From NCBI GenBank assembly GCA_026874595.1, contig CM049317.1, positions 27,961,401-28,025,400 on the forward strand: a DNA stretch of 64,000 nucleotides. Reading direction: 5' to 3'. The DNA comes from Sipunculus nudus. Its lineage: Eukaryota; Annelida; Sipuncula; Golfingiida; Sipunculidae. Made by a program: the position numbers and the translations under genes. This document shows positions 30,786-55,632 of the stretch, in pieces; positions within the stretch are counted from its first letter, which is position 1; each line of letters opens with the position of its first letter. The notes under the pieces are model-generated. The model had not been told where the DNA came from, made no database searches, and was given only the letters and a program-made list of their open reading frames with translations.

Positions 30786-30843
30786 ACATAACCAACAGAC
30801 TAGGCCAATTAACTAGATTAGCGGATTGCTGGCGCAGTTTACA

Positions 30844-31434: not shown

Positions 31435-31487
31435 AAAATATCCAATCACAACAACCAACCATGGCCTACCGGTATATTACCTTTTCC

Positions 31488-31650
31488 TCTGAGACTTTAT
31501 TTCCATTTGGTATTATTTTAGATGTTACCTTCAAGGTCAACTTCCAAGCGAGCTCAGTGACCCATTTCTTCTGAGACTTTATTTCCATTTGGTATTATTT
31601 TAGATGGTACCTTCAAGGTCAACTTCCAAGCGAGCTCAGTGACCCATTGT
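31488..31650. repeat. 82-base tandem duplication (unit 1)
   Basis: The block 'tctgagactttatttccatt' through 'gcgagctcagtgacccat' occurs twice in a row, starting at 31488 and 31570. The same pair is in unit 2, starting at 54231 and 54313, so it predates the duplication of these units. Confidence 0.9.
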
Positions 31651-31659
31651 TTCCTTGTT

Positions 31660-32882
31660 TTATCTAGAATACGGGTAGTCGACAACCCCTATTCCTATTG
31701 ACATGCGCATGGAAACCCCCATAGCATCCGGAGATGAATACAGAATAAATGTCGTCCTTGCACAGACCCGGCTGACCCCAATAAAGACAATTAAACAATA
31801 TTGATGCTTGTGTGGCAAAATAATCCACTTTTGCTAGTCTATTGCAAGGGTGGGACAATAGGGGGATTCCATGCGCATGCCAAACAACAACACTTCCGTT
31901 CTTAAAACAAATGGTGTCCAATATCAGACCTACTGGTTCAGAGCGGTAGCGGCACCTGGCGTCTGTTGGAGAGACTAGTGTTTTCTCAAATCACAGAGGC
32001 ATGGGTAGCGCCACCTGTCTAGTCGAGAACAAAGCTATCCAAGGCGGATAAACATGCAAAATATCAGGCTAATAACATCTATCTGCTGCTGAGATATGAG
32101 CAATTTTTCCCAAAGAAAACTGACGGATGGACACTACGCGAAATCAATTGCAGAGTCTTGAATACGGGATAGAAGTAGCCAAAATATCTGAACATGCTCA
32201 ATTTCAGGCCAATACCGCAAACAGCTCCCGAGGAAAGGGCATCAATGTATGCTAAACAAAGGGAAGGTAGGTGGTGCTACCAGCTGGTCTAAAAATATCA
32301 TTCTCATAGATCGAAGAACATGCCAAATTTCAGACCCACTCCTGAGATATGCGCAATGTTCACCCGGAGTAAATGTACGGATAGAAGCCATCCGAAACGA
32401 TTGCAGATAGTAACACCAATGTTTAGTACAATATGGAGGTATCCAAGATCCATGGATATTTACAATTTCAGACAAATACATTGAACCAATCACAAAGATC
32501 ATGAAGAACAGAGGCAAATACATGGATGGACGCCACGCAAAAAGATAGTAGGTAGCGCCATTAGTCTTCAGTACGAGAAGGAGAGATCCAAGAGTTATAG
32601 ACACGCAGAATTTCAGCTCAACACATTGAACAACTCCTGAGATATTGCCTGTTATCATAAAGACACCCAGATTCATACTGCATATAAATCATTGCAGGTT
32701 GCGCTACCTGTCTTTGTTAGGCAAAGCTACATGGGTGAGAATATAACGATGTCAGATTTCGGGAAAAATCGTTCAAAGGGTCACAGAAGAGTTCTTCGGA
32801 AACGGACGCGGCGGCGAAGACGGTGGCGGAACCCGGTCAAGAACAAAGTATCCACAAAAATTTGTTTTGGCGAATACAATAA
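31660..32882 (-). repeat. Foldback-like element, right arm (unit 1)
   Basis: Reverse complement of the left arm in mirrored order. The inner end 'gaatacgggtagtcgacaa' matches 'ttgtcgactacccgttttc' in the unit 2 left arm. Tandem units with 'catgcaaaatatcaggc' and '(g/t)gcgccacctg' follow, then the outer end 'ggcggaacccggtcaagaac' and 'tttgttttggcg'. Pairing is imperfect throughout, so the arms are old. Confidence 0.6.
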
Positions 32883-34480
32883 GTTTTACTCATCGGTCAC
32901 AGATGCACATATCGTTGCCAGACACAGAGGAAATATCAACTCAAATGATTGGCCACCAGTTTTGACCCAATAATAGTGTCAAGATTCGGAAAAATTCCTC
33001 CAGTGGTCTCTGACAGGTTTCCAGGAAACTGATCATCCAGTCAAGAGCTGAAACAAAAGAATTCGTTCTTACCCGCCTGTCAACAATCAAGTACAAACAG
33101 CTATCAAAATGGAGATTCAAAAAACAAATATTTTCCAAGAAAATTTAAAGGGAGCTGTTCCGATATTTTATGTGTAAAATAAAGTAAATCTCTTGAAACT
33201 TGTTTAAATAAGTAAAAATGTCATCAGTCCGGTGATGTACTGTCTTTTTTGTTTAAATCTCTGGTACCGATAACACCTAGATGGCCCGCCTACTGTTATA
33301 AAAAAATCCATCAGCGAAACCTGGCTGCGAATAAGACGAAACAACGTATTGCAAACCTAAAATGATGTGGACAAAGAATGAAAGTCCTTGCTTATAAGGC
33401 CCCTGGCTTAAGCCACTTTTTGGCTTATTTTTATAAAAAATTCAAGAGTATCTAGTTCTAATACACATAAAATATTGGAAAAATACCTCTTTAATATCAG
33501 TTACCTTTCACAGTTATATCCAAACCAATGAACTTAATTTACGTCAAATACTGGAGAGATGGATATACGTGTATAAGATATAGTTGAAATTTAACTTGGT
33601 TATTTGGAAAAAAAGTAGTCAGAAAATTTTGCGGTATAATCCCTATTTATTCTGCTAAATGAAAGATTCTATTAGGTAGAATATTTTGCGGTGTAACTTT
33701 CCTTTTTCATTCTGCTAAATGAAAGGAATATCCAATAAGAAAAATCTTTGAGTGCTGGGGGTTTCAGCTTTATATCCATAATATCATGTTTGAACAACAC
33801 TTTCATCTGGATTATTGGTTTGAATACTTCATTGTGTGCCAGCCTGCGTTCCGCTTTCCACTCTGAAACCACAGACAAACCATGTATAATAAATGTATAA
33901 AAGTCTCACAAAATGAACATAGCAGGTAATTTCTGAGGCCACTAATTGGTAACAAAAAGTAGTTATAAACCCTTTATTTAAACTAGATATTACTCCCTTA
34001 CTTCACCATACAAGATTTTACATCTTGGTATTTAACACAAAATAACAATAGACCGGTTATTTTTTCTAGCTTTTTTTATATAGCACACTATGACATATGG
34101 TATTTAACAACATTAAAACCTGATTTTTAAAAACAATCAGGTTTTTTGACATGCCTTGCACACAATGTGGGAAGCATAATGCCGTATTTGTGATTTCTCC
34201 ATGCTGTTTCTTTTCACAATCACACTGTTTAAAGCACAATAATGACACCTTCCTGGGACACAGACACACGCCAGTGAAATTAAATGAGGGCACAAGTGAC
34301 AAATGCTTATCCGTGAACACTGTGCATATGACGAAGGTACTGACATAACAATTCTAGTTGGACAGAATTAAATTGATAGAAATATTTGTAGAGGAATAAA
34401 AAAACCGGAATAGTTCAAGTATAAAGTGTTTTTATGAGGATGTTATTATACAAAAGGGTCCAACATCCTAAGCTTTATAT
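32883..34480. other. Spacer, no gene seen
   Basis: AT-rich, near-identical to 55633-57241. Short ORFs on both strands (60-84 codons) are unconvincing. Confidence 0.45.
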
Positions 34481-34984
34481 GTCTCAAAATAAAAAAAAAA
34501 ATGTAACTAAGAGGATAGAAAATGCAGATGGTTCCACCACTTTTCATGAACTGAGGAGAGACTAAATCCATTGATCTCAGCTTAACACTGTCCATGTTGT
34601 CAGCAGATATTACAATCACTTAGTTGAAACACTTATAGTTTGAGACGAACGCCTAACTGTTTGGTTGGCAACCCAACATAGGTCTGTCAAATTGGGTGTT
34701 TTTTCAAAGGTTAAATGTATATGTTTTCCATATAACTTGGCAGAGATATTGATCATATAAACTGTAAACAGATTCCAGAGGCAAATATTTTAATTTTGAT
34801 TCCTGAGGGCATAAATTTGCAGTTTTGTGTTATTGCTATAGGTAAAGGTTTGGTATCGGTGAAATTTTGTAACGCCTCACTGGTTTCATTGTTCCTTGGT
34901 CTTAGTGCACTGGGTGAACCACCAGTTAGGTGTGTACGGGCCAGCTGATTCAGTATGAGGGATCGTCTCAAACGGGTACTTTTT

Positions 34985-36301
34985 TAGATAGGCTGTTGCA
35001 CAAACTGTACTAAAATAGTGCGAATGTGTACAAATTGTAAAAAGCGTAAACGATGTGTTGAAGTACGCCCAGATGATGGCTTGTACTGTGTAGAGTGGGC
35101 CACGGAAAGGTGGCCAAATATCTATAAGAAACCAAAACAAAATGAAACAGATAATGGTAGTGTTAATAATAATGAAAGAGAGTCTGTTAAACCTAAGAAT
35201 AGAGCCAGTAACATTACTGATGATGATATACCTGTACTCTGTGACTGTATTTGTAACAATGTACTGTATTATGTTCAATACTATATACACAGGGCCACAT
35301 CTGATAATGTTCGTAATGTTATATGTAAGTTCTATGGACAAGATGAAATCAGAGATGCAAAAAATCCTGTTATACAAAGTAGCTGGTGTGGATGTATTGG
35401 GAGCTCCACCTAGCAGGTTGACCTCAGCCACCAGAACATCTAGAGAGGCAGATGCTGGTGATATAATATCAGCTTTCCAAAAGCTTGATGGTTTGAATGT
35501 AGATCTCCCAAAAATTGCGGCATGTAACCTTGATAGGCTTCCTAAATTTGCCCCTGAGCAGATGGAGCATATGGCACTGCTAGATATTATAAATAACTTG
35601 GATCAGAGACTGAAGTTAATGGAGGTAAAATCTGAGCAAACTATAGACTCAGTTGCTGCCCTGCAGGTTACTGTGCAGCAGGGGCTTCTTGAAAATGATA
35701 AGGCCAGGCAGGTCTGACAAGCTAGGGAGGAGCTGGGTCTAAACCAAACACCTGATGTTACCACTGTCGGTGTGTCAAAGTCATTCACTGATGTAGTTAG
35801 GGATGGCTACCGCAGTTCTGAGGTTGACCGTAGGCATTCTGTCAACGGTGTTAAGGATGGACAGGTAAACTCTTACTCCCATGTAGACTCACTACCACAT
35901 GTGAAGGAAAAGGATGATGAGTTTCAGTTCCAGAGGCAGGAAAAGCGGCGACAGATGAAAAGAAATAAACCTACAGTAGTTGGGAAAATGTACATGAATC
36001 AATTAAAGGTGGTCCAAGTACTGTAGACATATTTGTAAACAGAGTCAGTAATGATGTTCAGGATGATGAACTGAAAGAATATATTGTAAATGAAGGAGTA
36101 AATATATTGCAAATTGAAAAAGTGTCTCATGAAGAATATATGATGAAGTCATACAAGGTGCAGATACGGGTAAATGATATAGAAAAGGTAATGGATGCAG
36201 ATTTTTGGCCAGAGGGCATTGGGCGTAGAATATTTTTTACAAGAAGGCGTGACAATAGCAATAGTTGTAAAAATAATCTGCATTGCTTAAGGCGGCACTG
36301 A
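34985..36301 (+). pseudogene. LINE ORF1 (unit 2), zinc-finger type, broken
   Basis: It starts MCTNCKKRKRC...GLYC, a Cys-rich finger, then CDCICNNVLYYVQYYI. A frameshift at the A-run near 35361 moves the reading to GVDVLGAPPSRLTSATR. A TGA at about 35715 (after NDKARQV) and a frame break near 36020 follow; the last block holds KSYKVQIRVNDIEKVMDADFW, an RNA-binding-like C-terminus. The frameshift and the TGA are shared with the unit 3 copy. Confidence 0.7.
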
Positions 36302-39300
36302 CAACTCCTACAAAACTCAGTTGTATATCATATAACCCTACGGGTGTTATCAATGATACAAAAAGATCATATATAGGGAACCTTATTGAAACAAACCATG
36401 TTGATTTTATATTTTTGCAAGAGACCTGGTTGCTTGGTGAACGAGAGCCATTACTAGCCACTATTCATAAGGATTTTATGTTTAATGCTCAGACAGGTAT
36501 GGACAGCTCAAAGGATATAATGTGTGGTCGCCCATACGGTGGAGTGGCCATCCTATGGCACCAGTCACTCTCAGGCCGTGTGCATACTGTCAGATTTTTT
36601 TAATGTTATATTAATTCGTATTTATTTGCCGTGTGACAATCGATCACAAACAGAAGCTGATCAGGAATTTATTGGTACTTTGAGTGAGCTTCAGCATATT
36701 TTAGAAACACATGATGCAAAAGCTGTTATCATTGGTGGAGATTGTAATGTTGATCTTAATAGATCTAATGCTCACACAAGGTACTTAAAAAGTTTTTGCA
36801 GCACCCATCAACTATATTTTGCTTGGGACAGTCCAGATGCTGTGCTAGATCATACTTTTATGAATTGTAAGGGAGTGGGCATATCTACTATCGATCACCT
36901 TATATGTTCCGGTAATATTTACAAGTCTATCTCACATGTTGGAATAATCGATGATCCATTGAACGCTTCCAGGAATAGTCATGTATTTTTTAAACTTAAT
37001 ATTGATGCAGGTCAGTATTACATGGTGAATAATATGATGACTTTCAAGAAAACACAAATTGATTGGGTTAACACAACTGAGAACGAGATCATAGAATATA
37101 AAAATGCTTTAGATATGAACCTTAAGGACATTTGCATCGCTAGTAATCTTTTGAAATGTATGGATAATGCGTGCTCATTATCTGAGCATAGGAGAAGTAT
37201 TGATGTTTTACATGCAGATATTGTGAATAGCTGTGTCAGTGCAAGTAATCAGTGTCTACCGTTTAAAAAAAACACCTAGGTGAAAACTTAAGCAAATACC
37301 ATACTGGTCGGAGCATGTTAAGCCTTTTAAAAAACAAGCACTTTTCTGGCATCGGCTGTGGATCCAAAATGATCGTCCAACTGTTGGACATGTAACCACT
37401 ACAAGACGTAGAACTCGAGCCCACTATCATCGGGCTGTGAAGCAGTGTAAACGAAATGAGGATATTTTACGAAAACAAAGGATGGCAGAAATGCTTTATA
37501 ACAGTTGTGATCGAGACCTGTGGGCGGAGATTAGGAAAATTAGATCAGGTGGTGCTGTGCAAACTAAGGTTGTTGACAATAAATGTTCATGTACTGAGAT
37601 TGCCAATCATTTTGGGAAAAAAAATACGAGAATTTGTATTATAGTCTCCATGACAACGCAGATGATCTTAATGCAATTGAAGATATGACAATGCAAAGGA
37701 TACATGTGAATGATAATTTTTGTGTAGATGTCTCAGATGTGAAAAGGGCGGTTAAGCATTTAAAGAGGGGAAAATCTGATGGCAGAAATATTTTACAATC
37801 TGACCATATAATTCAGGGCCCTGATTGTCTGTATGTTTATCTGTCAATTCTGTTTTAATTTATGATCTCCCATGGACATGTTCCCAAAGATATGAATACA
37901 TATGTAATTGTACCCATACCTAAAGATCGTAAGGGTGATCTCACGTGTAGTGACAATTATAGGGGTATCTCTTTAGCTAGTAGTTTGAGTAAGTTGCTCG
38001 ATATTGTAATCATCAATAGGACTGGAAATAAACTCAGTACCTCCTCATAACAGTTTGCATTTAAAAAAGGCCACTCAACTAACATGTGCACAGAAGTCCT
38101 AAAGGAAACAGTTGGACATTACCTTTGGATTGGTTCACCAGTGTATTCTTGTTTTGTTGATGCATCTCGTGCATTTGATAAAGTTAATATTCCTAAGTTG
38201 TTCGGAATGTTATTGGAACGAAATATTCAGCCTGCTATCATTCGGGTCCTAATTGATATGTACAAGACTCCTGTGATCAAAACTAAATGGGGTGGAGTTG
38301 AATCCGAAGAGTTTGGAGCCAGTAATGGTGTGCGGCAAGGAGGAGTCTTGTCTCCTAATCTGTTTACTATATATATGGATGAATTACTGAATCGGCATAG
38401 AAATAAAGGTATTGGATGTTATGTTGGTAGCCATTATGTAGGAGCAGTAGGCTATGCTGATGATCTCACATTGTTAAGCCCCAGTAGGTCAGGCCTTCAA
38501 GAAATGTTGAAAGAATGTGAACGTTTTGCAATAGAATATGATATGGTTTTCAATCCAAAGAAAACAAAATGTGTTTTGTTCAAAAAAGGTTCAGAAGGTA
38601 AGCCAGAAAACGTTTGCTTAAATGGTGTTCCTATAGGATGGGAGGAATCTGTGCAGTACCTAGGAAATATGGTAAGCTCAGACTTATCAGATCATTATGA
38701 TATAATAAATAAAAGGGGCAAATTTATCTCAAGCTTTAATGTTCTAATGTCTAACTTTGGATGTCTGTCGACGAGGGTTGTAAATAAGCTATTTCATTCC
38801 TTTTGTTGTTCATTCTATGGCTGTCAGTCCTGGATATTACAGCATAAATCAATAGAAAAATTATGTACATCTTATAACAAGGCTTTGCGTCATATTTGGC
38901 ATTTGCCATATAACTCACACAGGAGTATTGTTCATGGTCTTGCAGGGTCTTCTTCATTGATAAATATATTGATTGCACGCTTTATCACATTTTTATGCAC
39001 TATGTATACTGTTGGAAATAATATTGTACAGTTCTTAGCTAAAAGAGCTTAGTATACATCTTTCGGTGTATTTGGAAACAATCTACGATATCTTGAAAGT
39101 GATATGGATAAATATGGAATGTGGGGTGACACTGGTAATCTTAATACCCTAAAGAGTCACTATCAAAAGATACCAAGGTCTGTTAACATAGAATTAATAT
39201 CGGAATTAACTGATTGTAAAGACGGAATAAGTACGTCACACTTAACAACTGAGGAAGTGAACGTGCTGATTAATGTGTTGTCTACTGTTGAGGTGATGTC

Positions 39301-39310
39301 TCTGGACTGA
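36289..39310 (+). pseudogene. LINE ORF2: endonuclease + reverse transcriptase (unit 2)
   Basis: The endonuclease shows FIFLQETWLL, VIIGGDCNVDLN and STIDHLICS. The RT shows NYRGISLASSLSKLLD, motif A SCFVDASRAFDKVN, motif B NGVRQGGVLSPNLF and motif C GYADDLTLL, so the catalytic residues remain. Lesions private to unit 2: ATG of ORF2 changed to AAG (near 36289), about 48 bases lost at 36590-36600, TAA near 37858 and TAA near 38048. Shared with unit 3: an in-frame TAG at 39050 before the last 86 codons (ending VEVMSLD). Confidence 0.8.
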
Positions 39311-40057
39311 AGGATCCTATATCTGTATTTTGATTTGCATTTTCGTTGTTTGTTTGTTTGATTTTTATTGTATACAATCAATGTACTCTGTTGTGGTACG
39401 AATTAAGATATATATATAACTTAACAAAAAGTTGATCATGCGAGGTTCCTGCATCTTTTATGCAGTCCATAAAAATGCTCCATCACTACGACAGCTAGGA
39501 ATCTATACAAATATTCTCATAATCAGCATTTTAAGCTGAGCCCCGTGACTAAAGGTTTTGCCTAAGAAGCGTACAAATGCTTAGATCCTTGCTGAGGAAA
39601 AACCCGCTTACCGCTTAGTGAGCAGTTAGGTCCAGTCAATAGATCATAACCGAGGTTATCTTTGAGTATACAATATTAAAATTGGACTAAACGAAACATC
39701 CAAACTGAGTGCTTTATATCATTACCCCGTACCGGAAAGTGAGATTGTGCGCTGTAAATCCTTATATTTTAATATTTATACCGAGATACATTTGAAGTGA
39801 TTGCAACTTTGGTTTATTAATATTAGAATATGGTAGGATAACTTTTTTTTAAATAGACAATGTTAATCAGTTTTATCTTCCTCTCTTAAATTATCCCTGA
39901 TAATACCGTGAAAATAAATGCTCTATCATGCGCAAACATCCAATAACAGCCGTTGAAACCAGCCAGTAACGTTTCTGATAAACACTGTGTACTTTTACCC
40001 ATTCCGTAACTATCGCATTTACGTAGGTCAAGTATATTCTGTTCATATAAAATCTAA

Positions 40058-40063
40058 TATAAA
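40058..40063 (+). promoter_or_regulatory. Candidate TATA box, copy B
   Basis: TATAAAG 150 bases before the ATG, same spacing as in copies A and C. Confidence 0.35.
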
Positions 40064-40207
40064 GCTAACATCACGTTTCATATATCCTGATAGTGTGTGT
40101 AAGCTATCAGCAGAAAGGGAAACATTGTGATTATTTAATCAGTTGTTATTACAGTCTGCTCCGGTATCACTTGTCCATTAACAACAACATATCACATGCA
40201 GTTCACC

Positions 40208-43200
40208 ATGGACTCCCTTCCCTGCAGGTTCTGTATTATAGTCGTTATGCCAATGCTTCAAGTGTCTACACAGAACGTTACTGGTAAGTTTTCTTTTATT
40301 ATTTCTCTGTCCCCCTTAACCAACACATTGATTCTTTATTTTAAACTGTAGTTATATGAGTCATTGAAACCCGTTATCCCTCTGATATATTGAGAAGCCT
40401 AGCTATATTCATTCTGATTATTCACGGACAGATTAGCGGGTAACATTTATATCATATGAACAAAGTACATGTTATTATAACGTATACCTTTACAAATCAA
40501 TTTGCGAAAAGAGTTCCACTTTTCCTTATTTGAAAATATCCTAACATTTGAGAAAATGATATCAAGTTAGTTGAGAATGTGGAACATATTGACAAACTAT
40601 TGAGCTCATAGGACTAGAAGTTTCCATTAGCATGACTCTGTTCTTTACATTCATATTTAAACATACTGAATTCTGTTAAGAAGACCACTTGAATTTCATT
40701 GGTTATTGTACCTTTTACCGAATATCTTGTCTACACATTTTGATGTAATTGAACAAATCAATGTTGAGATATGAACATGCGCACAGAACCATCATAATTT
40801 TTTCAAGCAATAGAAGTCACTTTCCGTAAGTGATTGAGAACTAAATTAATTCTGGATATCTGGGAGGGATTAATTTGTCATAATTAAGTCTGACCTGCTG
40901 ACCTCTAAGTTGCAATGCTTACCCACGCACGAATAACCATATTATTTTACCAGATTTTTATTATAATGTTAAATAAAACCCTTGGTCTGACGGCGTATGT
41001 TCAAGGTAAGAAAACACAACAACACATTTTTTTTCACTCGAGGAAGTGGCTCGTACTTCTCCTTCGTGTATAATAACTTTGGTGGAAAAGGTTTCCTGTG
41101 GTATTGGATGTTATCAAACTCTGTAATGGTTGCTACAGGATTTATATCAATGTCCAAAAGCGCCAGTATAACGGATTTATAAAATAAATCCCATTTCAGA
41201 TTACACCATTTCAACCAGGAAGGATAACTTAGACTGTATGTGTAAAATGTGTTTGTTCCAGAAGTGTATGCACATCATTTTAATGAATGGCTACATAATA
41301 ACAGGTACCATTGTAGATATAAATAACCTTTGTATATAATAGCATCATTTATTAAACTTTTTAAATAGCCGTGAGCTGTTTCCCATAGCAAAGAAGCACC
41401 TAAAATTTTTATACAGAAGCAGCCTCAGGGCTACTTATTATTATAACTTTTTATTTTCCTGATTTTCACCAGCAAATGTTCAAAGAATGACGTATGAAGA
41501 CGCCAAAGCTACTTGTAGAAGACAAAATATGTCTTTGCCTTTAGAAATAGGAGATTATTCTGACATTAAAGGTGTCACATTCTGGTTATACCTGGAGCAA
41601 AAAGAGCTTCATCGCTGGCAAACTGGAAATGTAACAGACACATATAGTAAGTACGGTGTATCTATTATGTCTATGTTTCTTAAAATGCTTCTTTTGTTTA
41701 TTTATTTGTATCCTTTCTGTATATATCTTTATATTCCTCTCGTACTTCAATGCTGAGATTTACACGTCCAAGTAGTTTGCTGAATACCCCTAATACTTGC
41801 AGGTTTATCACATAATGTGTCAACTAAAGAAAACAAATGCAAAGTTCTATACAAATCAGGGATAAACGAAATGGACTGCTTCAGTCACGGCCTTGGAGCC
41901 CTCTGTTTGACAGGTATGGATATTGTCGATACCAATGACACTTTATTCCTTAAAATGTACCGACTTTCCCCCTTCCTATCAGGCTCATGTAAATTGCATC
42001 GTATTGTCTGTGTTATTTTAGGATGCACCCCTTGCCATTCATGGGAATGCATTCGAATCAATGCCTCTGCATGTTTCCGTGTCCGTTGTAAATTACATAA
42101 CTGGTTCCAAGCCCGAGAGGTCTGCTGGGCGGTGGGTGGCGTTCTTTGGGATGGTGGTGATCTTTCTCTTGGGAGTGAACTTTGGCAGTGCAAGGAATAT
42201 TGGCTGTCATATCATACAGTAGAGTGGGTCACAGGGGGTATACTTCTTTTTACTTAACATACATTACATGCTATAATTTTGCTTTGAATGTTGACCAGCA
42301 TGGCATGAATACATATGGATAAATCATAACATTTAGATTTCGTATTGTCATTTCAAATTATTGTCAGCAAAATTGCGATATTTCTATACCAAAACTGGAT
42401 ACTCTCGTCCTACGTCTCGATACTACCCAACTCAATTGGATTTAAATTTCAAAACTTTTAACCCGCTTAATGTACCTCAACATTACTTTTGTTTTTCTTT
42501 CTGGTGAGCAATCTTATAATATATCTGATATATCTGATCACCTGTTTTTTGTATTATTTCGTAAACGGCAAAAAGAATTTTAAGGTATAATTATAAAGGT
42601 TTGATATTGATATTACAAATGGGCCTTTGCCCCTCATAGGAATATTAAAACAAGCAAATTTCAGTTTAACAATAATGTTGTAACAGAAGCCCCAAATTAC
42701 AAGATCCCAACTGAGACTAACTGGAAGCCGAATGCGATATGGGGGAAATACAAGAACTGTGCCGTGGTTAATACTACTGGGCGCATGTGGTGGAGACCAG
42801 CCAACTGTATGGATCTCCAAACGGTTGTGTGCATAAACAGTAAGTAGCGGTGTCACATTTTCATGAAAAAAAATCCTACATTTTCTGCCTTTATTTATGC
42901 TAAAGGAATATCAATGAGGTATCTTCTACTATTATTTATTCACCACAAGGAGTGTTGAAATTTTCAGGCTTCGTCAACTTATCTAAACTTTCCATGTACA
43001 TTAACATTCACGTACCAACGAATGTGTACTACTCAGTTATTCCCAGAAAAAAATGAAAACGCACTTTACATTTAGAAATTATTGATTTAGAAATGTAATT
43101 TTTATATTGCAGAATCGTCACACGTAACTTTTCGAGAAAATGCAGACTTGTCTTCCACGGTCGAATACAAGTGGAATGTTTCTGGTAAACAATTAACGTT

Positions 43201-44174
43201 TGAGAATATATCTCTTAACATGTAATCTAGAGTTAAAGAGGTGTCACATTTTTTTTTTCTTTTAGGTTTTTCTTATCAAATTTTGATTTTGTTACCGTTT
43301 ATAGGAGTAGCAAACAGACGCCTTCTTCCTACAATAAGGCACTGAATCTTATTATAGACCATACACACATCAAAATATCAATTTGCCTAAATTACTAATG
43401 CTTGAATGGACAGTACTTTAAACGAAATTCTGATATTTTTAATGGCTCCATTTTAAGTAATTCAAGAAGCCCGTAATGACATCTATGTCTGCTTGAATGA
43501 TTGAATATGACATTTCTGTTTTACGGTATTATGAAATATGATACATATAGTTAAGTTAAAAAATACCCATAGCTATTCACCCAATGTTGATACCTCTTGA
43601 ATTCAGGCACGACTTCAATGATCAATAAAAAGAATCTGCCACGGTCAAGACCAAGCAAGGTTTTCCGTAAATATTTACATTTTTGCTCATTACTGCTATC
43701 CTAATATCATAAATGTTATTTACATTATATTCTTATGACTGCCATAATTTAATTAGTTGTTATTATATTTACTAATAATTAACATACACAGTTTATTTTA
43801 TGGAGCCTCACATCATTAATATTAGTATATATTTTTACTTTTACTAGTACTTCAGTTTTTATTTATCAATCATGTTGTATCTCAGAATGTATTTAGTCGT
43901 GGGTATCCAAGTAACAGTAACCATCTTAACAATATACATTTGATTTCTATGGCAAGGGAATTTTGCAGAAAGAATCCGAACAGTGACCCGTTTCGTCACA
44001 TTCAAACTACAAAACTTATAATTTATATTTTTACAAGCAGAATATCCATACATAAATAAAGTTCAGTCATTTTACACAATAGAACATGAGCTGTCGTGGT
44101 TTCTGCTGGCCTGTGCTGTGGTAGGTGGTTTGGGAGCCTTATCGTCAGCAGTAATTGCAATGCTTCGTTGTTAG
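40208..44174 (+). CDS. Receptor copy B: two CTLDs plus TM helix, tail lost by stop codon
   Basis: Exons 40208-40283, 41473-41646, 41803-41913, 42022-42237, 42687-42839, 43113-43184, 44083-44174 = 894 nt, 297 residues, with every exon size and phase as in copy A up to exon 7. No disabling change occurs before the membrane. The codon after LRC, AAG in copy A, is TAG at 44172-44174, so the product would be anchored but tailless. About 25 codons differ from A in amino acid, mostly in the ectodomain; sequon NCT of CTLD 2 is lost (NCM). Intron 1 is 1.2 kb here. It may be a decoy-type receptor or an early pseudogene. Confidence 0.7.
41473..41913 (+). CDS. Copy B exons 2 and 3: CTLD 1
   Basis: Same structure as copy A with several replacements in exon 2: VQRM for FQRV, K for I in EQKELH, WQT for SQS, Y for F before the donor. 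By eye exon 2 has one silent change against seven changed codons. Exon 3 has G-I for R-V. Confidence 0.7.
42022..42839 (+). CDS. Copy B exons 4 and 5: CTLD 2
   Basis: Exon 4 (42022-42237) keeps all Cys and WFQAREVCWAVGGVLWD. Exon 5 (42687-42839) reads WGKYKNCAVV, WWRPANC, VVCIN. The phase-keeping acceptor 'ttgtaacag' is conserved, which supports the exon 5 start chosen for copy A. Confidence 0.7.
44083..44174 (+). CDS. Copy B exon 7: TM helix ending in TAG
   Basis: The helix sequence is identical to copy A at the protein level. One A-to-T change (copy A 18938) turns AAG into TAG and also turns the alternative donor GTAAGG into the weaker GTTAGG. The normal donor 'tccag/gtaatt' downstream is intact, so mRNA may still splice to exon 8 as 3' UTR. 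Confidence 0.75.
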
Positions 44175-44540
44175 GCACTATCCAGGTAATTAATCCATGT
44201 TCATCATCACACAGCATTTGGATGTTTTCATCACCAACACGGCAAATAAATTATAAAAGAGGAACGAAATTCCTGAATTTTTCATAACAGACTGAATAAA
44301 GTTTCAAACAAAATCCGTGTAGCGTCACATCCGTGTAGCTCCTTCTTACTGGACTGTTATAGCAGTAGAGAGATATCTCGGAAGTGTATACTGGAAACAG
44401 GGAAAAACAACTGATTATTTTATCGTATTTCCTGTTAACCTTCAAACTAAGAGTATCTCTTTTAAAAACATGAGTGAAGCCTGTATTTACGTTATTTTTA
44501 ATTTTTATGTAACTTTTTGATATTCTTATTTTTATATCAG

Positions 44541-44638
44541 GTCTGGTCTTAATAACTCATCGAGCGACCAAGAAGTGCAACAACTGGGGTGCTTCGAAGA
44601 AGAGGGTCAATATTCAGAAGTTTCAAGTGTTTAATTAA
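44541..44638 (+). pseudogene. Copy B tail exon, unchanged but downstream of the stop
   Basis: Base-for-base the same as the copy A tail exon over its coding length, with an intact acceptor 'tatatcag'. It can be translated only if the TAG is skipped or if the weak GTTAGG donor is used to reach the basic frame. Confidence 0.6.
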
Positions 44639-47600
44639 TATCCCCTAGGGAACAGATTCATAAGGTTTACTTGTGTCACGTGTTTAGGTATATAAAGTTG
44701 TTTCCTCTTCAGGCGTTGTAACAAAATACTATTTAACATTATCTAAAAATGTGTGATTCTGGAACTGTTTATAAGAGACGAATAAACTATGGAGCTTATG
44801 GTAGTATATATCTTGTACTATTTACTATTTTGCTTATATTTTAAAATTTGTCACATCTAACGAACATGACTCCTGTATCGCATTTTAAGTTAACTTGCTT
44901 GTTTGTTGCAAATTAAATATTAATAATGTTACCGCCCGTAACTGATTGTTAAAGTTGTCAAAACACGGGCATATTTACTCATAATAGGCAACATGAAAAT
45001 AACCACCATAAGTAATATGATAAATTAAGCTAAATTTATCGTTTTAATAAAGATAATTGTCTGTAATACATAAAGCTTCCTACTGAGAATTTATAGTCGC
45101 AGTAGGAATCTATAACCGCCCTATATGTAAATTGGCATAATAAAGCGCTTTTGATCTTAGAGATATATTATTTAATTCATTCCAGCTGCCAATCATAAGG
45201 GCTCTGTTGTTTTAATTGATCTGCATACAAAAATCCTTTTTCGTTGTAATTTATCATGAATTAAGACAAACAATTATATTTGTTATTTATAAATCAGTAA
45301 CAAAGTATTGCAGAGGGTTTGATATAAAATTGTATCAATATATAGTATAAACAATTGGATCATTCAATCTCATTTGTATCAGGGATTTATTATTAAGAAG
45401 AGAAGGGATATAGAAGGAATCTTTTTTGAAGTAGGAAATTACATGTTCACGAAAGTCCACGTGTTACTGCATAATTCGAGATACCTAACATACTATATTT
45501 TATTTTATTGATACTACATTATTGAAACTGTATTATTGGGAGCATTCTGTCGAATAAGCCATTTCTTAAATTTACTGAAAAGTTCCTCCGCCTTAATATT
45601 TAAAAACAAACATTTCTGTAGTATCACAGTCGTTTACAACAGGGGTAAGTTGAATAAAATGCTCATAACTCCGTGTGATGGGAGTAAAATGTGTGATTAA
45701 TATTTCTGTTTTGTGTCATGTTACGAATTAAAATTTCGGAAACTGTGGAAGTACAGGATAATATGTCACTGGTCCTATATTCATATATGCTGCAGACTCT
45801 TTGAAATTCCCTTATGAACATTTTTTAAAAATTAATGTAGTACATGCACGCATTATTAGAAACATTGACCACATGTATCAATCTTCTGGAGTTGGTGCGG
45901 CCAGTGTTCATTTTTTTAAAGTAGCTGATTTTTCCGGGATGTATGCTAAGAGGATGGAAGAGCAAGGCGTAAGATAGAAAGCCGATTGATTGAAAGATAT
46001 AATACATCCCAAGGTTTTAGACATGCACTCTATCTTCGTTATCTTGATCACATCAGTATGATGTAAATCATTTTCAAAACAAATTCAGTAAAACATTTGG
46101 TTTTTAGTTTCATTGACCTAATTGGTAATTGTTTCGTTGTTACGTTTCTGTGTCTTCAGCATCTCTGCTCTGGCAACCTATGTACAGTAAAGTTTTCTCT
46201 TTATGTTAGCTTTTTTTGCCCCATTGCAGAATGACTGGGAAACTTGCTTTATCGCGCGAACATATATTAACAATCTATTTTTAATAGTATACTTTGACAT
46301 TATTATAACTGAATAAAACAGGTTATTACATAAAATTGGTAATATAGCCAGCAACTGTATAATAAAATATGCTTGAATATATTTAGAATGTATGGTAAGA
46401 AAGGGGAGTTTTTCTTCTGGAATTCAAACTCACCAATTTTCGGTTCTTTTTATCTTATGTGCAATGCTCAGTGTGATCTAGAATATTGAATAATTGTAAT
46501 TGCTTAAATGGGAGAAGTACACCCTATGTTATCTAGCTAAATATCTTATAAGGCAAACCAATATCTGACCAAGCTTTAGGTCTGCCGTGAAGATCCAATG
46601 AACCAGCTCTAAACAATGTATTATCAGTATGATCTTAAAACATAATTTAGTTACATCTTTATAAATAAATAAATATGCAAAATGTCAAAATTTTCTCATA
46701 ATCACTGCCCCATTAGACAAAGCGGCCCGGCGTACCCGGCTATCTGAGACGTGGCCCTAAGATTTTCCAATGCCTCGGAGGAGAATCAAGATAATTGCTG
46801 CAAGGCAAAAACAGGCGGGTTAAATTGCCCATGTAATAAAATTACAGCATACTCATCCTGAAGATATATATTTCATTGATGCGATCTGCTGACATATTAC
46901 CTAATGCTTCCTGCATTTTGATTGATCAAGATGAGCTGCTTGATTTTCGTCTCAGGATAACGGGCAGACTAAGCTGTAGTTGCTTATTTTTATTAAACAC
47001 TTTTTCTATTTTATTTTTCTATAAAATCTCCTTGTGACAACATACGATTCATGTTTAACACTGACGAGTTTAATATCAGTAAAGAACTGACAGAATTAGA
47101 GATACGATATTATCGCTTTTGAGAATGTAAAAATAATATTAATGAATTATGTACTATGAAAATTCCCTTTGACCTTAGTATTTACTGTAAATTGTACGGA
47201 TAAAAGTTCAATACAGTGGGATTGCTCTACTATTGAAGCATACACTGTTCTTTAATGTATACACTGCTTCATGACCGAAGGAGAGCAAACTACTATAATA
47301 GTTTATCAAAATGAATCTAACGTTGTACTAGCCATTTTAAATTTTATAACCTGCATTAATCTTCAAACAGAGACGAACCTACATTTATAAACAGTCCTTT
47401 TTTTTGGTTCACAAAATAAATGCACTAAATATAAAGGAACTTTTAAAAATAATTGCCACCCATTGCCAGATTGCCAGATAAGTTAAGCATTTGCTAACTT
47501 TATTTATAAGCAGGTCGCTACCGATGCTAAAGACAAAGCATAATTTTAAAATAAGCAGTTTATTAACCAGAATTCGTCTCCTAGCTACTAATAACAGCCA

Positions 47601-47744
47601 AAAGCACCGCTCGCCAAATGTAGTTTCGTATTTATTCTGGAAGGAAATTGGGCTTGGGCAACATACACTCACACAATTTAAAAAGATAAAATAACAGTTT
47701 TACTGGAATAAAATTCTAAACCTTCAAATTATCGGGACTGCATG
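44639..47744. other. Unit 2 spacer, no gene seen
   Basis: Matches unit 1 19393-24550 except for the missing 2.04-kb segment (junction near 46494). Only shadow ORFs of 60-90 codons are present. Confidence 0.45.
45046..45051 (+). terminator. Candidate polyadenylation signal, copy B
   Basis: AATAAA at the position matching that of copy A. Confidence 0.35.
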
Positions 47745-48620
47745 TTATTGTCAACGCCAAAACAAAGTTTCGCGGAAACTATGTTTTTGACCGGGTTCCG
47801 CCGCTGCCGCGTGCGTTTCCGGGAAAAACTCTGAGACCACTGGACAGGTTTTTTCCGAAACTTAATACGATTATCATTTTACTGGTGCCAACATATTTTG
47901 CGCTGACCTCTGACCTTTCCTCTCTCTAGTGCGTCCATCTGTGCGTCTGTTTGACACATAAACCCAAATATCCTCGGACTTATTTGACCAATAAGGAATT
48001 TTTTTGGCACAAATTTAGCACTTAGCTCTATAACATACATAAAAAATGGTGACGCCACCTGCAACCATTTTTGCACTGCGTCCATCTGTTTATCTGCCTT
48101 TGGATAAAATCACTCTGCAGTGAATTGACTTATCCACCTGAAATTTTGCATGGGTATTCATCCGGGAAAACTTTCTTGATTATATGGCAGATGGCGCCAC
48201 GTACTTTCACGTTCAGGCTGCAGACATCGAGGCTTTTATCTCATTACTGGTTTAAAGTATCCCACTGAAATTTTGTATAAGTATAGATCTCACATAGCTC
48301 TTAATCATACGCAAAACTGGTGGCGCCACCTGCAACCATTTTTGCACAGCGTCCGTCTGTTTCTCTGCTTACTTAATCTCGCCAGTGGTTTGACTTATCT
48401 GCCTAAAATTTTGCAATTGTATACGATTTAAATCACTTACTGGGTTTTGCGGCAGGTGGCGCCACCAACATACACTTTTCGGCTGCAGACATCTATGCTA
48501 TTATGCAACACACCTCCCTCTATTTCCCCTGCACTCAATTCATCCCTCACTTCACCCGTCGCACTCTGGTTTCGGCGAATACACGTAGTCGCTTGTCGAC
48601 TACCCGTTTTCTAGTAAACT
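47745..48620 (+). repeat. Foldback-like element, left arm (unit 2)
   Basis: Same order as the unit 1 left arm but shorter by about one and a half tandem units (about 250 bases after 48350 are absent). It keeps 'ttgtcgactacccgttttc', which is missing from unit 1 and pairs with the right arm. Confidence 0.6.
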
Positions 48621-49300
48621 GTTGTTAAAGTTATAAATGAAATAAAATATACGTACCAGGCTAAGTAGAATTGACAGAATCCACAGGATGTGATTGGCAC
48701 GGTCAAAAATCAAACACCCATGAGGTAAGCAGGTGTTTGGTGTCAGTTCAAGGTACTGACCCCTTGCTTGCAGCTCCACTGCTCAGATCTGAGAGACCGG
48801 GGATCGCCAGGGCAGGAGAGTCTTACCCCAGATGGGCAGAGGCTAGAGTCCTTAGCTGCCTGTGATTGGCCGATAGCCGTTCCCTTGCTGATAAACAACT
48901 GTCATGTTCTCATGTCAGGCTATCGGACAATAACAGAACACAGCATGGAAGCTACAAAGCAATACTGTTATATTGCTGCGTCGAATGCCCTAGCGTGAGT
49001 CTCATAGTTTTAGGGAAGAAGTAGTTTTTCCTTTTGAAGGGAGTCCTCAATGATACTTTACATTCCCTCTGATTGCCAGTAAACTTGGCTGCGAGAGAAG
49101 CTTGATCTTGCTCGGGACCGACCTGCCTTGTCACTGCGGTCTGGGGCATGTCGCTTGGAACGGCTCCTTATTATCGCCCTGGTCCAGCGGGTTAACATGT
49201 GATCTGTGTCTCAGTGGTGTCTCAGGAATTATCTCCAATGTCCATTTATCTAGCGAGTATTACATTGTTTTCCACCTTAATGTCCCTAATTATTCAACAG

Positions 49301-49363
49301 CACGTGCAGCTGTGAACAACGCTTTACTGGACATTGAGTACAAACGTGTGAGGAAGCATACAG
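49301..49363 (+). CDS. Candidate 63-nt exon (unit 2), gene unknown
   Basis: Counterpart of 26367-26429 with the same acceptor and donor. The possible terminal exon is 49628-49671. In unit 2 both lie in one uninterrupted 189-codon frame (49102-49671), whereas unit 1 has a stop between them; the splice reading survives in both. Confidence 0.2.
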
Positions 49364-51827
49364 GTATGTGTACACTTAAAAATATCGGACCCGTGACATA
49401 TACTCGTAACTTATCATCTCGTAACATCCCCCTTACTTTGAAGAAAAGAAAAGAGTTCTTGGTAATCAGTCAATCAGTTAATCACGCAAAGTTACTTCAA
49501 CATAAGAAATTATATTCGCACAACTGTTTCTCAATAGTAGCATACAAATATGAATTTGCAATGTTATGTATTTGCACTCTACTGTTATTTCTTGTGGTTA
49601 ACCATTGTTTTTGTTACAATATATCAGGTGCTGCGTTAAGTTGGTTCTTTAATCACTTGTTTTCAATCTGAGAGTATAAAATGAATGAATGTTAACACTT
49701 GAAACTGATTATGAAATAAAACCTACACAGTTCTTAGATAATGATAATCCTAACTGGGCACATAGTCTTTGGTTTATCTAGCTGGTGGCTTGATCACTCT
49801 GTTCCTGGTTTGGCGCCTGTTTTCTACCAGCCCACCATCAGTTGTCGTAGTATCGTCTCTGCTTTCCTGCGAATTAACTGGTATAACATCATCCGGTTTT
49901 GTGTGCGCTTAAGCGAGCGAGTCATCAGGACTGACGTTTTGTGCAGGATTCGTTATATGCGTGTGTGAATCATTGTTAGGCTCCTCACCTGTTTGATACA
50001 TTTCGGTATCTTGGTCTGGTATAGTTCGTGAGATTGCCTGATAAACCGTCTGTTACCTCTGTAGATTCTGCCATTTACATTCACCAGGTAAGAACAGGGA
50101 GCAACTTGTTGTAAACATATACCTGATTGCCATCTCTTGTCTCTATCACCTGGAAGTGGTTGCACACGAATTGGCTGACCATACAAAAGGTATGGTAGAG
50201 GTCCAGCATTTCTCTCTTTGAATTATCGCGAATCACAATGTGGGCCGTTGTCTGAAACAACAGTATGAGGAATTCCCTGTCGGCAGAACTGTTCCTTTAA
50301 GAAGTCAATCACAGTAGTAGCACGAGTTTCTGCTTGTTTTTGGTATTCCCAGAAATCTGGGTAGTAATCGACCACGATGACAAAATCGTTTCCCTTTATG
50401 TAGAACAGGTCGACTCCTACCATACTCCAAGGCTGTTCCATTAATTGCATATGTCATCAGTGACTCCTTCAGTTATTTTGCCTGATATTGATCGCATGTA
50501 GAGCAATTGTTAAGATGATGTTTTACCTCACTTTTCATGCCAGGCCAGTAGACGACATCACGAGCTTTACGTAAGCGAAATTCAACACCATGGTGATTGC
50601 TGTGTATGCGAATAAGCATTTCTGGACGCCTAATCTTCTCATACCCTTGTAGAGTACAAGTTTTTTAACAGAAAGCTCATCTCTGTATGACAAAATACTC
50701 TCTGGTGTTCTACCGTATTTATTTATGTCATTGGCCATCCAGAGATAACAACGTCCTTCAGAGTTTGTAGCTGATTGTCTTTCTTAGAACAATCTTGTAT
50801 CTGTTTCAGTCTTGCGTCAGTCACACAAATGTTCCGCTTGATTTACCTGTTATATTTGTTAGTCATGTATTTGATCTGTGACAAGTCCAAAGATCTGGTA
50901 ATCAAGAGTTCCTGCGTCTACAGATCTCTGAGGCAGGGCTGCTCTAGATAGACAATCCGCAATGTGCATCTCTTTGCCTTTCTTGAAACAGCAAGCGGGT
51001 ATTTCTGGAGGCGGAGCATCATTCGTTGATGTCTATTCGGTGCTGCCAATATAGACTTCTGGAATATGCTCTATAATGGTTTGTTGTCAGATTCCACATG
51101 TACGACGTCTTTATCATGGATGTACTGGTTGAAGCGCTCATATGCGAGACGATGGCTGAGTACACGTTCTTGATCTGGGCGGATCGTTGCCCTGTTTGCA
51201 ATAGCGATCGTGATGATAGGCCATTTGTTGGCCCTCCTGCAATAAGGTAGCACTCAGGCCAACTTCACCAGCATCACACTGTATCGTGACCGGTACATTC
51301 ACATTATAATACCGTAAATCAGAATGTTCCGTTACCAGTTTCTTGATCGAGAGGAACGCTTGCTCTCGGTGGCTATTCCACATCCACAGAGAGTCGTCTT
51401 AACGGTTCACAAACCCCAGAAAGCCGTGGTAGGAACTTTGACAGATAGTTGACAAATCCTAGGAACCTCTGTACAGCCTGGACATTCTCTGGGCGTTTCA
51501 TTTCGGAGATAGCTTTGTTCTTTTTTCTGAATCGGGTTTGAGCCCCTCAGAGGTCAAGAAATGTTCTATGTATGGAACTGCTGTCATACGCAGACGCATG
51601 TTTTTCTTATTGAACTTCAAGCCAACTTGTCTGGCACGTTCAAGTAGGCCTATAAGATTAGAGTAATGGTCTACTTTGGCTTATTCTACTGTGTCTCCTG
51701 AACCCCAAACACATATGTAATCGTTTATGACACCATATCCTGGCAGACCGAGAATATGTTAACTTTGTCATCTCCGATATTTCTTTGATGCTGGCTTGAT
51801 TCCCATTGGCATTCTCATCCAGCGGTA

Positions 51828-52058
51828 TCAACCAAAGGGAGTCCAGAAAGTGATTGCATAACTGCTTTCCTCGTCAAGTTTGATGTGCCAATGGCCGTCC
51901 TTGGCATCAAGTACAGAGAACACTTTTGCTTTGGACAGATTAGGAAGCATGTCCTTAATTTTCGGCGTAGGATAGTGGTGACGCTTTAATGCCTTATTCA
52001 AGTTTCTCGGGTCTATACAGATCATCAACTTTCCTGAAGCTTTTCTGACAGCGACCAT
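51828..52058 (-). pseudogene. Gypsy RT fragment (unit 2)
   Basis: Contains GKLMICIDPRNLNKALKRHH, VFSVLDAKDGHWHIKLDEES and ITFWTPFG, more complete than unit 1. Stops and frame breaks on both sides prevent a full polyprotein. Confidence 0.8.
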
Positions 52059-53089
52059 ATTGCTAACCTGGTCTGTCGGAATTGTAACCTTTGAGATTAC
52101 ACCAACATTTTTTTAGTCATCAAGCTTTTTCTACAACTCTGCTCTGAGTGGAACTGGCACCCGACTGGGTTTTTGTTGGACAGGTCAAACAGATTTGTCA
52201 ATTTCAAGGTGAAGCTTACTCGTAAACAGTCCTAGCCCATGGAACACATCACCATAATCTTTGAAAATGCGATCAGACTTTAATGGCTCGTTTTCCAACA
52301 AAAATATGGCTGACCCTGTCCATTGGTATATTAACAGTTAAAAGTCATAGGCGTTCACAAGCATCTGCAGACAATAATGGACTCTGAGTACCTTTCATTA
52401 TCTGGAATTCCAGTATATTTGTATGATCTCTGCAGGTTCATTTAATCTTACTCTGTCCAAGTGAATTCAAAGTATGATCGGTCACGCAATCTAAATCTAG
52501 CTCTGCTTTTGTCCATTGGTGGGTCACCATCTTCTGCTATTCTGCAGAAATCACGAAAAATTTCAGGTTACATGTTGAACCGGTATCCATTTGATATAGT
52601 CAATCTCGTCCAGTGTCCTTTACATCAACTATTTGTATACGTAGTGTCAACATACACTGTTTGCCTCTATCAGAAACTGAGCTTATAGTATGTGTTATCT
52701 TTAATACTGAATCATCTGAACTGCTTGATTCCCTGTCCTCAGTGTCATTAACTTGATGCACTTTTGCCTGTTTATATTCAGTAGTTGGTCCCCATCGTCG
52801 TTTGGTTTGTTGAAACACTTAAGCAAAGTGAATAAACTGTCACAGGCAGCACATTTCTGTCCATACGCTGGGCATTCATCCTTCCCTGCTTTGTGTTTGT
52901 AACCACAATATTTACATGACTTTGTTTCAAAACGTTTGGTCTGTATCTGTGGTTTTGATTTTTCCCATTGCTTCAATCTGCTCTTATGCTTGATTTGTTG
53001 TGGACAATGAACACTGTCTTGTTGTTCAGCATTGTTTCACTAGCACAACAAGTTTCTATGGCTATTTTAAGTGTCACTTCACTTGTTCT

Positions 53090-53542
53090 TTAGAGCTTAA
53101 AACAAACAGACTCATCATTAGTGTCTGTTACAATTCTGTCACTAATCATGTCGTCACGAAGTGCATCAAAATCACAAGTGTTAATGTAATCATCAAAACG
53201 TTCGTTACCTCCTTGATCGAAAGTATTGAACACATACCTTTCGCATATGACGTTCTTTTGCGGGCGGAAATGTCTTTCCAAAACATCCAGGATTTTGTTG
53301 TTATCCTTTCCAAACTTATCCTCCATATCGAATTGTCTGTATATGCTTTAACAATCTTTGCCCATAACACAAAGCAAGTTTGCATTCCGAATCTCGTGCT
53401 GCTTCTTGAGGAGCTCCTTGGCAATTTCATACTTGTTCAATTGTGAACGGATAAAGTCCAAATTATCGCTCTGTTGACCATTCAGAGGCATCGCTGTGGG
53501 AACTGGAACTGCTGACGCGGTAATTGCGACAGTATGTTGCAA
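53090..53542 (-). pseudogene. Gypsy gag remnants (unit 2)
   Basis: Two frames: 53348-53542 with LNKYEIAKELLKKQHEIRNA and 53090-53326 with LDVLERHFRPQKNVI. A stop after CFKL ends the second piece earlier than in unit 1. Confidence 0.75.
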
Positions 53543-54230
53543 ACATAACCAACAGACTAGGCCAATTAACTAGATTAGCGGATTGCTGGCGCAGTTTACA
53601 TCCCATTTCTGACACCATAAGATAATAAAATGAATCGGTACGCTGACACTATATCAAGTCAATTGTTACTTTTAAGATAAGTAGTCTGGATACAAGAACG
53701 TCATTGAGAATTTGACCATATAAAATGGTAGCATGAACGTGAAAAGGCATAGAAATGATATATTGTTTTAAAACTTTATCTTATATTAAAGGATTCTCTT
53801 AATAATTTAGGGCAAAGCTACACATGGTCTTTCATTAGTCAGGTTTTGCACGTTTCATTTAATCTACCTTGCAGCATACCAACAATATTTATTACAGCCT
53901 TATAGTTGTTCAATGGTCACATTAAATAAACAGTGTCAATAGCGTATATAAGCTGTGGTAGAGGGGGTGCCGGCTCAGATAAGACAGTGCAAATGACCAT
54001 CTAGCTGAATCGCGCTTGCCTGCATAAATGGGATTCCGGTTGTGCCAGTCAGTGGATTTTCTTTTCCATTTACAGGAGGGACTGCAATGGCGATATCTCA
54101 TATTGCTTACATGTTTCAGTTTCAACATTAGGAAACACATGGTCAGATCACAAAATATTATTTGCAAAAAAAAAAAGAAAATATCCAATCATATCAACCA
54201 ACCATGGCCTACCGGTATATTACCTTTTCC

Positions 54231-54396
54231 TCTGAGACTTTATTTCCATTTGGTATTATTTTAGATGTTACCTTCAAGGTCAACTTCCAAGCGAGCTCAG
54301 TGACCCATTTCTTCTGAGACTTTATTTCCATTTGGTATTATTTTAGATGGTACCTTCAAGGTCAACTTCCAAGCGAGCTCAGTGACCCATTGTTTC
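54231..54396. repeat. 82-base tandem duplication (unit 2)
   Basis: Counterpart of 31488-31650. Confidence 0.9.
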
Positions 54397-54404
54397 CTTG
54401 TTTT

Positions 54405-55632
54405 ATCTAGAATACGGGTAGTCGACAATCCCTATTCCTATTGGCATGCGCATGGAAACCCCCATAGCATCCGGAGTTGAATCCAGAATAGATGTCGTCC
54501 TTGCACAGACCCGGCTGACCCCAATAAAGACAAGTAAACAATATTGATGCTTGTGTGGCAAAAATAATCCACTTTTGCTGGTCTATTGCAAGGGTGGGAC
54601 AATAGGGGGATTCCATGCGCATGCCAAACAACAACACTTCCGTTCTTAAAACAAATGGTGTCCAATAACAGACGTAGTGGTTCAGAGCGGTAGCGGCACC
54701 TGGCGTCTGTTGGAGAGACTAGTGTTTTCTCAAATCACAGAGGCATGGGTAGCTCCACCTGTCTAGTCGAGAACAAAGCTATCCAAGGCGGATAAACATG
54801 CAAAATATCAGGCTAATAACATCTATCTGCTGCTGAGATATGAGCAATTTTTCCCAAAGAAAACTGACGGATGGGCACTACGCGAAATCAATTGCAGAGT
54901 CTTGAATACGGGATAGAAGTAGCCAAAATATCTGAACATGCTCAATTTCAGGCCAATACCGCAAACCAATCCCGAGGAAAGGGCATCAATGTATGCTAAT
55001 CAAAGGGAAGGTAGGTGGCGCTACCAGCTGGTCTAAAAATATTATTCTCATAGATCGAAGGACATGCCAAATTTCAGACCCACTCCTGAGATATGCGCAA
55101 TGTTCACCCGGAGTAAATGTACGGATAGAAGCCATCCGAAAACGATTGCAGATAGTAACACCAATCTTTAGTACAATATGGAGGTATCCAAGATCCATGG
55201 ATATGTACAATTTCAGACAAATACATTGAACCAATCACAAAGATCATGAAGAACAGAGGCAAATACATGGATGGACGCCAAGCAAAAAGATAGTAGGTAG
55301 CGCCATTAGTCTTCAGTACGAGAAGGAGAGATCCAAGAGCTATAGACACGCAGAATTTCAGCTCAACACATTGAACAACTCCTGAGATATTGCCTGTTAT
55401 CATAAAGACACCCAGATTCATACTGCATATAAATCATTGCAGGTGGCGCTACCTGTCTTTGTTAGGCAAAGCTACATAGGTGAGAATATAACGATGTCAG
55501 ATTTCGGGAAAAATCGTTCAAAGGGTCACAGAAGAGTTCTTTGGAAAGGGACGCGGCGGCGAAGACGGTGGCGGAACCCGGTCAAGAACAAAGTATCCAC
55601 AAAAATTTGTTTTGGCGGATACAATAAGTTTT
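54405..55632 (-). repeat. Foldback-like element, right arm (unit 2)
   Basis: Counterpart of 31660-32882, including 'gaatacgggtagtcgacaa' at the inner end and 'ggcggaacccggtcaagaac' at the outer end. Confidence 0.6.

Follow-up and report, generated by a model that had tools for sequence, protein, structure and literature searches.

A stop codon behind the membrane helix in one copy of a tandem C-type-lectin-like receptor gene of Sipunculus nudus

The window analysed here, 64,000 bp of the Sipunculus nudus genome (GCA_026874595.1, contig CM049317.1, positions 27,961,401 to 28,025,400, forward strand), contains three tandem copies, A, B and C, of a gene predicted to encode a membrane receptor. 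The reading frame of copy B ends just behind the membrane helix, which raises the question whether this copy encodes a working receptor without a tail or is a gene in the course of being lost. The explanation preferred here, with better than even confidence, is that copy B belongs to a tandem cluster of type I membrane receptors of the C-type-lectin-like kind, that it is a chimera, and that this recent duplicate is drifting towards loss of function.

Gene models and the stop codon of copy B

The eight exons of copies A and B were picked from GT/AG sites and reading phase, and their limits are predicted (Table 1). Exon lengths are identical in the two copies (76, 174, 111, 216, 153, 72, 103 and 93 bp). 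In both copies the joined exons comprise 998 bp, made up of 332 codons plus two of the three bases of the final TAA, and A and B are free of insertions or deletions relative to each other. All seven introns have a GT donor and an AG acceptor in copy A and in copy B; from the exon lengths, introns 1-6 are in phase 1 and intron 7 in phase 2. The acceptor of exon 5 is the first phase-compatible site that is open in both copies, with an alternative 3 nt downstream. Among acceptors further upstream three are open in A, while the two phase-compatible ones in B are closed, and the shared site was used. Three more signals of the poly(A) type, besides those in Table 1, are found within 800 bp at the same offsets in A and B.

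Table 1. Predicted features of the receptor gene copies and of the duplicated segment, in window coordinates.
Feature	Position	Strand	Remarks
Copy A, 8 exons, intact 332-aa frame	11303-19391	+	exons 11303-11378, 16244-16417, 16573-16683, 16801-17016, 17456-17608, 17880-17951, 18849-18951, 19299-19391
Copy B exon 1, start codon and signal peptide-like segment	40208-40283	+	
Copy B exon 2, first C-type-lectin-like region, part 1	41473-41646	+	
Copy B exon 3, first lectin-like region, part 2	41803-41913	+	
Copy B exon 4, second lectin-like region, part 1	42022-42237	+	placed by 91% identity to that of copy A
Copy B exon 5, second lectin-like region, part 2	42687-42839	+	
Copy B exon 6, stalk	43113-43184	+	
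Candidate optional 60-nt stalk exon in intron 6, frame kept	43607-43666 (A: 18372-18431)	+	open, with matching AG/GT in both copies
Copy B exon 7, membrane helix, then TAG	44083-44185	+	
Tail exon 8, past the TAG in copy B	44541-44633	+	identical to that of A in 93 bp; final base of TAA at 44634
AATAAA in copy B	44781-44786	+	AATCAA in copy A at the same offset (19539)
Copy C, cut by the window end	62550-64000	+	exon 1 62550-62625, exon 2 63815-63988
Putative recombination breakpoint	44030-44090, best 44061		A/B differences 278/3000 to the left, 66/2421 to the right; scan 41029-46491
Duplicated segment, first copy (A exon 7 onwards and spacer)	18826-39529		
Duplicated segment, second copy (B exon 7 onwards and spacer)	44061-62321		

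Copy A translates into 332 amino acids without an internal stop and copy B into 297 amino acids up to a stop at codon 298. This codon (of 332) is TAG in copy B (44172-44174, forward strand) and AAG in copy A (18938-18940), and it lies two residues past a hydrophobic helix of 23 residues. The first-pass annotation had named this difference and described copy B as open and spliceable through the helix, with an unchanged tail exon and a splice at 44185. The gene models agree with it on all these points: codon 298 is the single internal stop, all seven donors are GT and all seven acceptors AG, the tail exons differ at none of 93 bp, and 44185 is the last base of the predicted exon, 11 nt past the TAG. 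A search by eye for another in-frame donor upstream of the TAG that could rescue copy B gave GCA/GTAATT, which would shift the phase.

It is improbable that the TAG stems from faulty assembly or base calling, or that the sequenced animal carries it as a rare allele. The difference is a single base in a single assembly, and near-identical tandem copies are prone to consensus errors and copy mixing. The site lacks a homopolymer (GTTGTTAGG), however, and a synonymous difference between A and B at 44165 nearby means that the copies differ locally beyond the TAG base. AAG is assumed as the ancestral state of codon 298, and two copies without an outgroup at this codon leave the polarity assumed. The reverse course, an ancestral TAG followed by stop loss and thereby a new tail in copy A, is given very little weight. 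By a rough estimate 34 open codons past the TAG are not improbable by chance, but the tail frame spans an intron in phase and, as expected of a real tail, closes with a tyrosine motif and a terminus resembling a PDZ ligand. An intron 11 nt past an ancestral stop would also be unusual.

A stop within 50-55 nt of the last exon junction spares the mRNA from nonsense-mediated decay (NMD). The TAG lies 11 nt upstream of that junction, and the mRNA of copy B is therefore predicted to escape exon-junction NMD. If transcribed, copy B would thus give a surface protein of 297 amino acids that ends in the helix and Arg-Cys and lacks the 35-residue tail.

The position of the TAG is suggestive yet not improbable, and is by itself weak evidence of design. 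Codons 298-332 account for 20 of the 170 single nonsense changes possible in copy A (11.6% by weight), so that a random one would spare ectodomain and helix about one time in nine. If all 46 coding differences between A and B are taken as neutral, 2.5 stops are expected and the probability that none falls in codons 1-297 is 0.11.

Predicted protein and mode of anchoring

The predicted protein is a type I receptor with a hydrophobic, signal-like start, two C-type-lectin-like regions and, at about residues 273-295, another hydrophobic stretch, where the 19-residue mean hydropathy reaches 2.21. The second lectin region of copy A passes the Pfam Lectin_C profile (24.1 bits with a cut-off of 22.6; 23.1 bits in the whole protein). 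The first region of copy B scores 19.0 bits, under the cut-off of 22.6, and the first region of A and the second of B gave no match to this profile, so that one of the four domain copies passes. The second region of copy B was assigned by its 91% identity to the second of copy A. The whole copy B protein had no Pfam match up to E 1. A phmmer search of the PDB with the copy A protein (E up to 5) gave no match, a sequence-level miss that leaves the fold possible. Calcium-dependent C-type lectins that bind sugars have EPN or QPD and WND motifs. By eye, the canonical forms were not found in the second region of either copy, which has EAPN and WWRPAN.

The tail of copy A comprises 35 residues from codon 298 and ends EEEGQYSEVSSV. 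It carries EEEG-Q-YSEV and a C-terminal SSV, both absent from the copy B product. The YxxPhi-type tyrosine after an acidic run and the C-terminal S-x-V are presumably sorting, signalling and PDZ-ligand motifs. The inhibitory ITIM consensus is S/I/V/LxYxxL/V/I, and by eye no ITIM was found in the tail, where G-Q-YSEV has Gly at position -2. Nor does the helix of copy B contain a charged residue, as no K, R, D, E or H is found in residues 273-295.

The TAG could also turn the helix into a GPI-anchor signal, so that copy B would be GPI-anchored, a reading with a very small chance of being correct. The C terminus of the product would then consist of a hydrophobic 23-mer without charge and two further residues. 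GPI signals are described as having small residues at omega and omega+2, then about 10 hydrophilic and about 20 hydrophobic C-terminal residues (PMC7125958). N265-V-S267 fits the small-residue part of this rule, being one of five such positions in the last 45 residues, but a signal counted from N265 would have 32 residues against the usual 20-30, and its hydrophilic spacer is short. The GPI-linked CEACAMs of primates and swine are thought to stem from stops and further mutations in membrane exons (PMC2832619). Arg296 is, however, kept at the cytoplasmic border of copy B, at which the GPI-anchored primate forms have lost the charged residue (PMC5856374). For the horse CEACAMs in which the stop leaves the helix complete, PredGPI did not indicate GPI linkage (PMC5856374).

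Divergence step and duplicated segment

Noncoding divergence between A and B falls sharply along the gene, from 450/3811 sites (11.8%) upstream of exon 7 to 64/2203 (2.9%) downstream (Fisher p 1.6e-37). A scan for one break gained 52.6 log-likelihood units at its best position, against no more than 8.6 in any of 300 shuffles, and the 2-unit interval adjoins the 5' edge of the membrane/tail exon (Table 1). The low divergence continues through an 18-kb collinear segment, with 511 mismatches in 18,893 aligned columns (2.7%) summed over five BLAST pieces; this total counts only pieces of more than 1000 columns, neighbouring pieces overlap slightly, and the first piece is the 3' end of the gene with its flank. 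It also includes one bin of 500 sites (25096/48019) at 13.2%, which lies amid repeats and is probably misaligned. The remaining bins range from 0.5% to 4.1%. Local gene conversion alone was set aside as the cause of the step between A and B, since the low divergence extends into the spacer.

The step is most simply explained if gene A and an older paralogue next to it recombined by unequal crossover, with the break at the 5' border of the membrane/tail exon. The crossover would have set the ectodomain of the paralogue in front of the A sequence that runs from the helix and the tail exon through the 3' UTR into the spacer. A later A-to-T change would then have given the TAG at codon 298. One such crossover yields the order A, spacer, chimera (paralogue ectodomain with the membrane/tail part of A), second spacer, paralogue, which accords with the visible pattern. 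On this account, in which the divergence step is observed and the crossover inferred, the tails of A and B would represent no ancient contrast, as B would have received the whole membrane/tail block of A and acquired the TAG afterwards.

A single crossover also implies that the 5' part shared by B and C and the 3' part shared by A and B are equally old. B and C are in fact closer. Within the visible 1.7 kb of the 5' part of the gene they differ at 12/1680 aligned sites (0.7%), as against 66/2399 (2.8%) between A and B from exon 7 to the 3' flank (Fisher p 1.1e-6). A later conversion between B and C, or a second event, is thus needed. The B/C difference is 0.5% in the last 431 spacer sites (from 39098) and 1.6-3.2% in the bins at 36586-39097. 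The greater likeness of B and C at 39098-41657 and 61891-63999 (0.5-0.7%) than in the rest of the unit (about 2.7%) suggests a recent exchange. The tail region of copy C lies beyond the window, and the crossover model predicts that its noncoding part differs from that of B by about 10-12%.

Several structural differences were observed along the copies. The spacer duplicated between the receptor copies is about 16 kb long (23317-39529 and 46494-62321). About 2 kb after copy A (21275-23316) are absent after copy B (junction near 46491-46494), and about 450 bp are missing before copy C, which starts directly after. Intron 1 of copy A has an insertion of 3.7 kb (12120-15784) that is absent from copy B near 41029 and contains internal repeats (12267-12578 and 13983-14297). 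The spacer carries LINE-like endonuclease/reverse-transcriptase frames, with Pfam matches to Exo_endo_phos_2 and RVT_1 at 36521-39052 and to Exo_endo_phos and RVT_1 at 59037-61845. The second of these has an open reverse-transcriptase frame of 477 amino acids at 60412-61845; the frame listed for the first has 333 (38051-39052). A reverse-transcriptase-like fragment upstream of copy A (8848-9309) scores 24.2 bits with RVT_1, under the cut-off of 29.6. No more relics of the receptor gene were found in the 64-kb window beyond three chance-level tblastn matches (E 4.9 to 9.9). Among viral contigs the copy A protein gave one pattern-matching stretch and the A/B domain alignment 11, none of which was confirmed as a relative.

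Gene turnover or a tailless receptor

A low dN/dS and the absence of coding indels indicate that selection acted on the receptor during much of the period after the A and B ectodomains separated. For exons 1-6 dN/dS is 0.36, an average over both lineages that says nothing on when or whether copy B lost constraint, including after the TAG. The count, in which codon 298 was skipped, comprises 25 nonsynonymous and 19 synonymous differences, nonsynonymous changes being below the neutral expectation (binomial p 0.0018). By part, the ratio is 0.76 in exons 1-2 and 0.28 in exons 3-6. The aligned noncoding bases upstream of exon 7 (3,811) contain 37 indel events, and none is found in the 802 bp of coding sequence in exons 1-6 against 7.8 expected from the noncoding rate (P 0.0004).

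Copy C is visible for two of its eight exons. Its exon 1 matches copy B at 76/76 bases, and the donor of this exon is TT (62626-62627) where A and B have GT. This leaves A as the only lesion-free copy of the three in the visible sequence. With three tandem copies, an abrupt change in divergence and a single-base lesion in both B and C, the window shows the features of a cluster in birth and death. One copy without a visible lesion beside two with different single-base lesions suggests birth-and-death decay, and the lesions would inactivate B and C. The chimera and its TAG would then mark a single stage in the turnover of the receptor cluster by birth and death, with another lesion in the neighbouring copy C. 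Copy B is most likely a case of ordinary turnover in a gene cluster. A decoy role is possible, and the sequence bears no sign of selection for a tailless form.

In line with the first-pass annotation, copy B could instead be a working surface receptor without a tail, which would bind ligand without signalling or internalisation and damp or buffer A. We consider this unlikely. The ectodomain and helix of copy B are fully open with intact splice sites, its mRNA would be spared under the rule on NMD given above, and a canonical poly(A) signal is present. The otherwise intact signals of copy B, among them an AATAAA at the site of AATCAA in A, speak for a gene that is still used. The horse offers a precedent: tagged CEACAM54, whose membrane exon has a stop, was found on the surface of Cos7L cells (PMC5856374). 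Between A and B, however, 23 of the 267 ectodomain residues (codons 1-267) differ, so that a common ligand is not assured, and the lesion of copy C fits decay. Taking the tailless and GPI forms together, a working copy B remains rather doubtful. The earlier proposal of a tailless, membrane-anchored form stands in so far as the predicted product stops two residues past the helix. The view of A and B as an activating/inhibitory pair was not borne out: the ectodomains are old and diverged while the membrane/tail block is recent, the helix is uncharged and copy C has a different lesion.

The nearest parallels of copy B appear to be the KIR of cattle and the CEACAMs of the horse. Short-tailed KIR of cattle, in which charged residues are highlighted, are described as products of recombinational tail replacement that are recurrent and short-lived, and five of six genes with activating potential are nonfunctional (PMC4258407). 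As in the present locus, the tail is exchanged by recombination in a tandem receptor cluster and the ectodomains stay distinct. The KIR have Ig domains, charged helix residues and one common short tail (PMC4258407), whereas the S. nudus copies have C-type-lectin-like regions and an uncharged helix, and a full tail appears to have been exchanged and then stopped. Horse CEACAM45, CEACAM53 and CEACAM54 are related to CEACAM1 and are, like copy B, tailed-receptor paralogues in which a stop arose in the membrane exon, with complete helices predicted; the tail exons remain in CEACAM45 transcripts and are now noncoding (PMC5856374). These mammalian genes belong to the Ig superfamily and their transcripts are demonstrated (PMC5856374), whereas copy B is known here from genomic sequence. 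In CEACAM pairs the ligand-binding domains are kept similar by conversion and recombination and the signalling parts differ (PMC2832619). The pattern is reversed between A and B, in which the ectodomain block is old, the membrane/tail block recent and exon 8 identical.

The locus would represent a receptor gene caught shortly after two steps of the kind by which clusters of immune receptors are remodelled, an exchange at the exon that joins outside and inside and then the loss of the inside. If copy B is expressed and kept, this suggests that the mammalian routes to tail-swapped and tailless receptors extend outside vertebrates. If it is not, the locus is a clear small case of gene birth and death in an invertebrate receptor cluster. 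That a crossover at an invertebrate membrane exon and one nonsense change have given a maintained surface decoy against A (transmembrane or GPI), convergent with the KIR and CEACAM routes, is decidedly unlikely.

The C-type lectin expansions of bivalves resemble the present cluster, with many CTLD genes of which some are multidomain and some have a C-terminal membrane segment; the available parts of these accounts name neither a tailless partner nor a crossover at the membrane exon (PMC10140915, PMC12842671). No tailless C-type-lectin receptor of molluscs was found among the matches listed in a literature search, which covered titles and the starts of abstracts and mostly lay outside the subscription literature. 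The tail of copy A resembles the hemITAM of Dectin-1 in having an acidic run and Gly before a single tyrosine motif, EEEG-Q-YSEV in A and a tri-acidic DEDG followed by the hemITAM in Dectin-1 (PMC11624271). Unlike Dectin-1, copy A has a predicted type I topology. In YSEV of copy A, V stands where the hemITAM YxxL has L.
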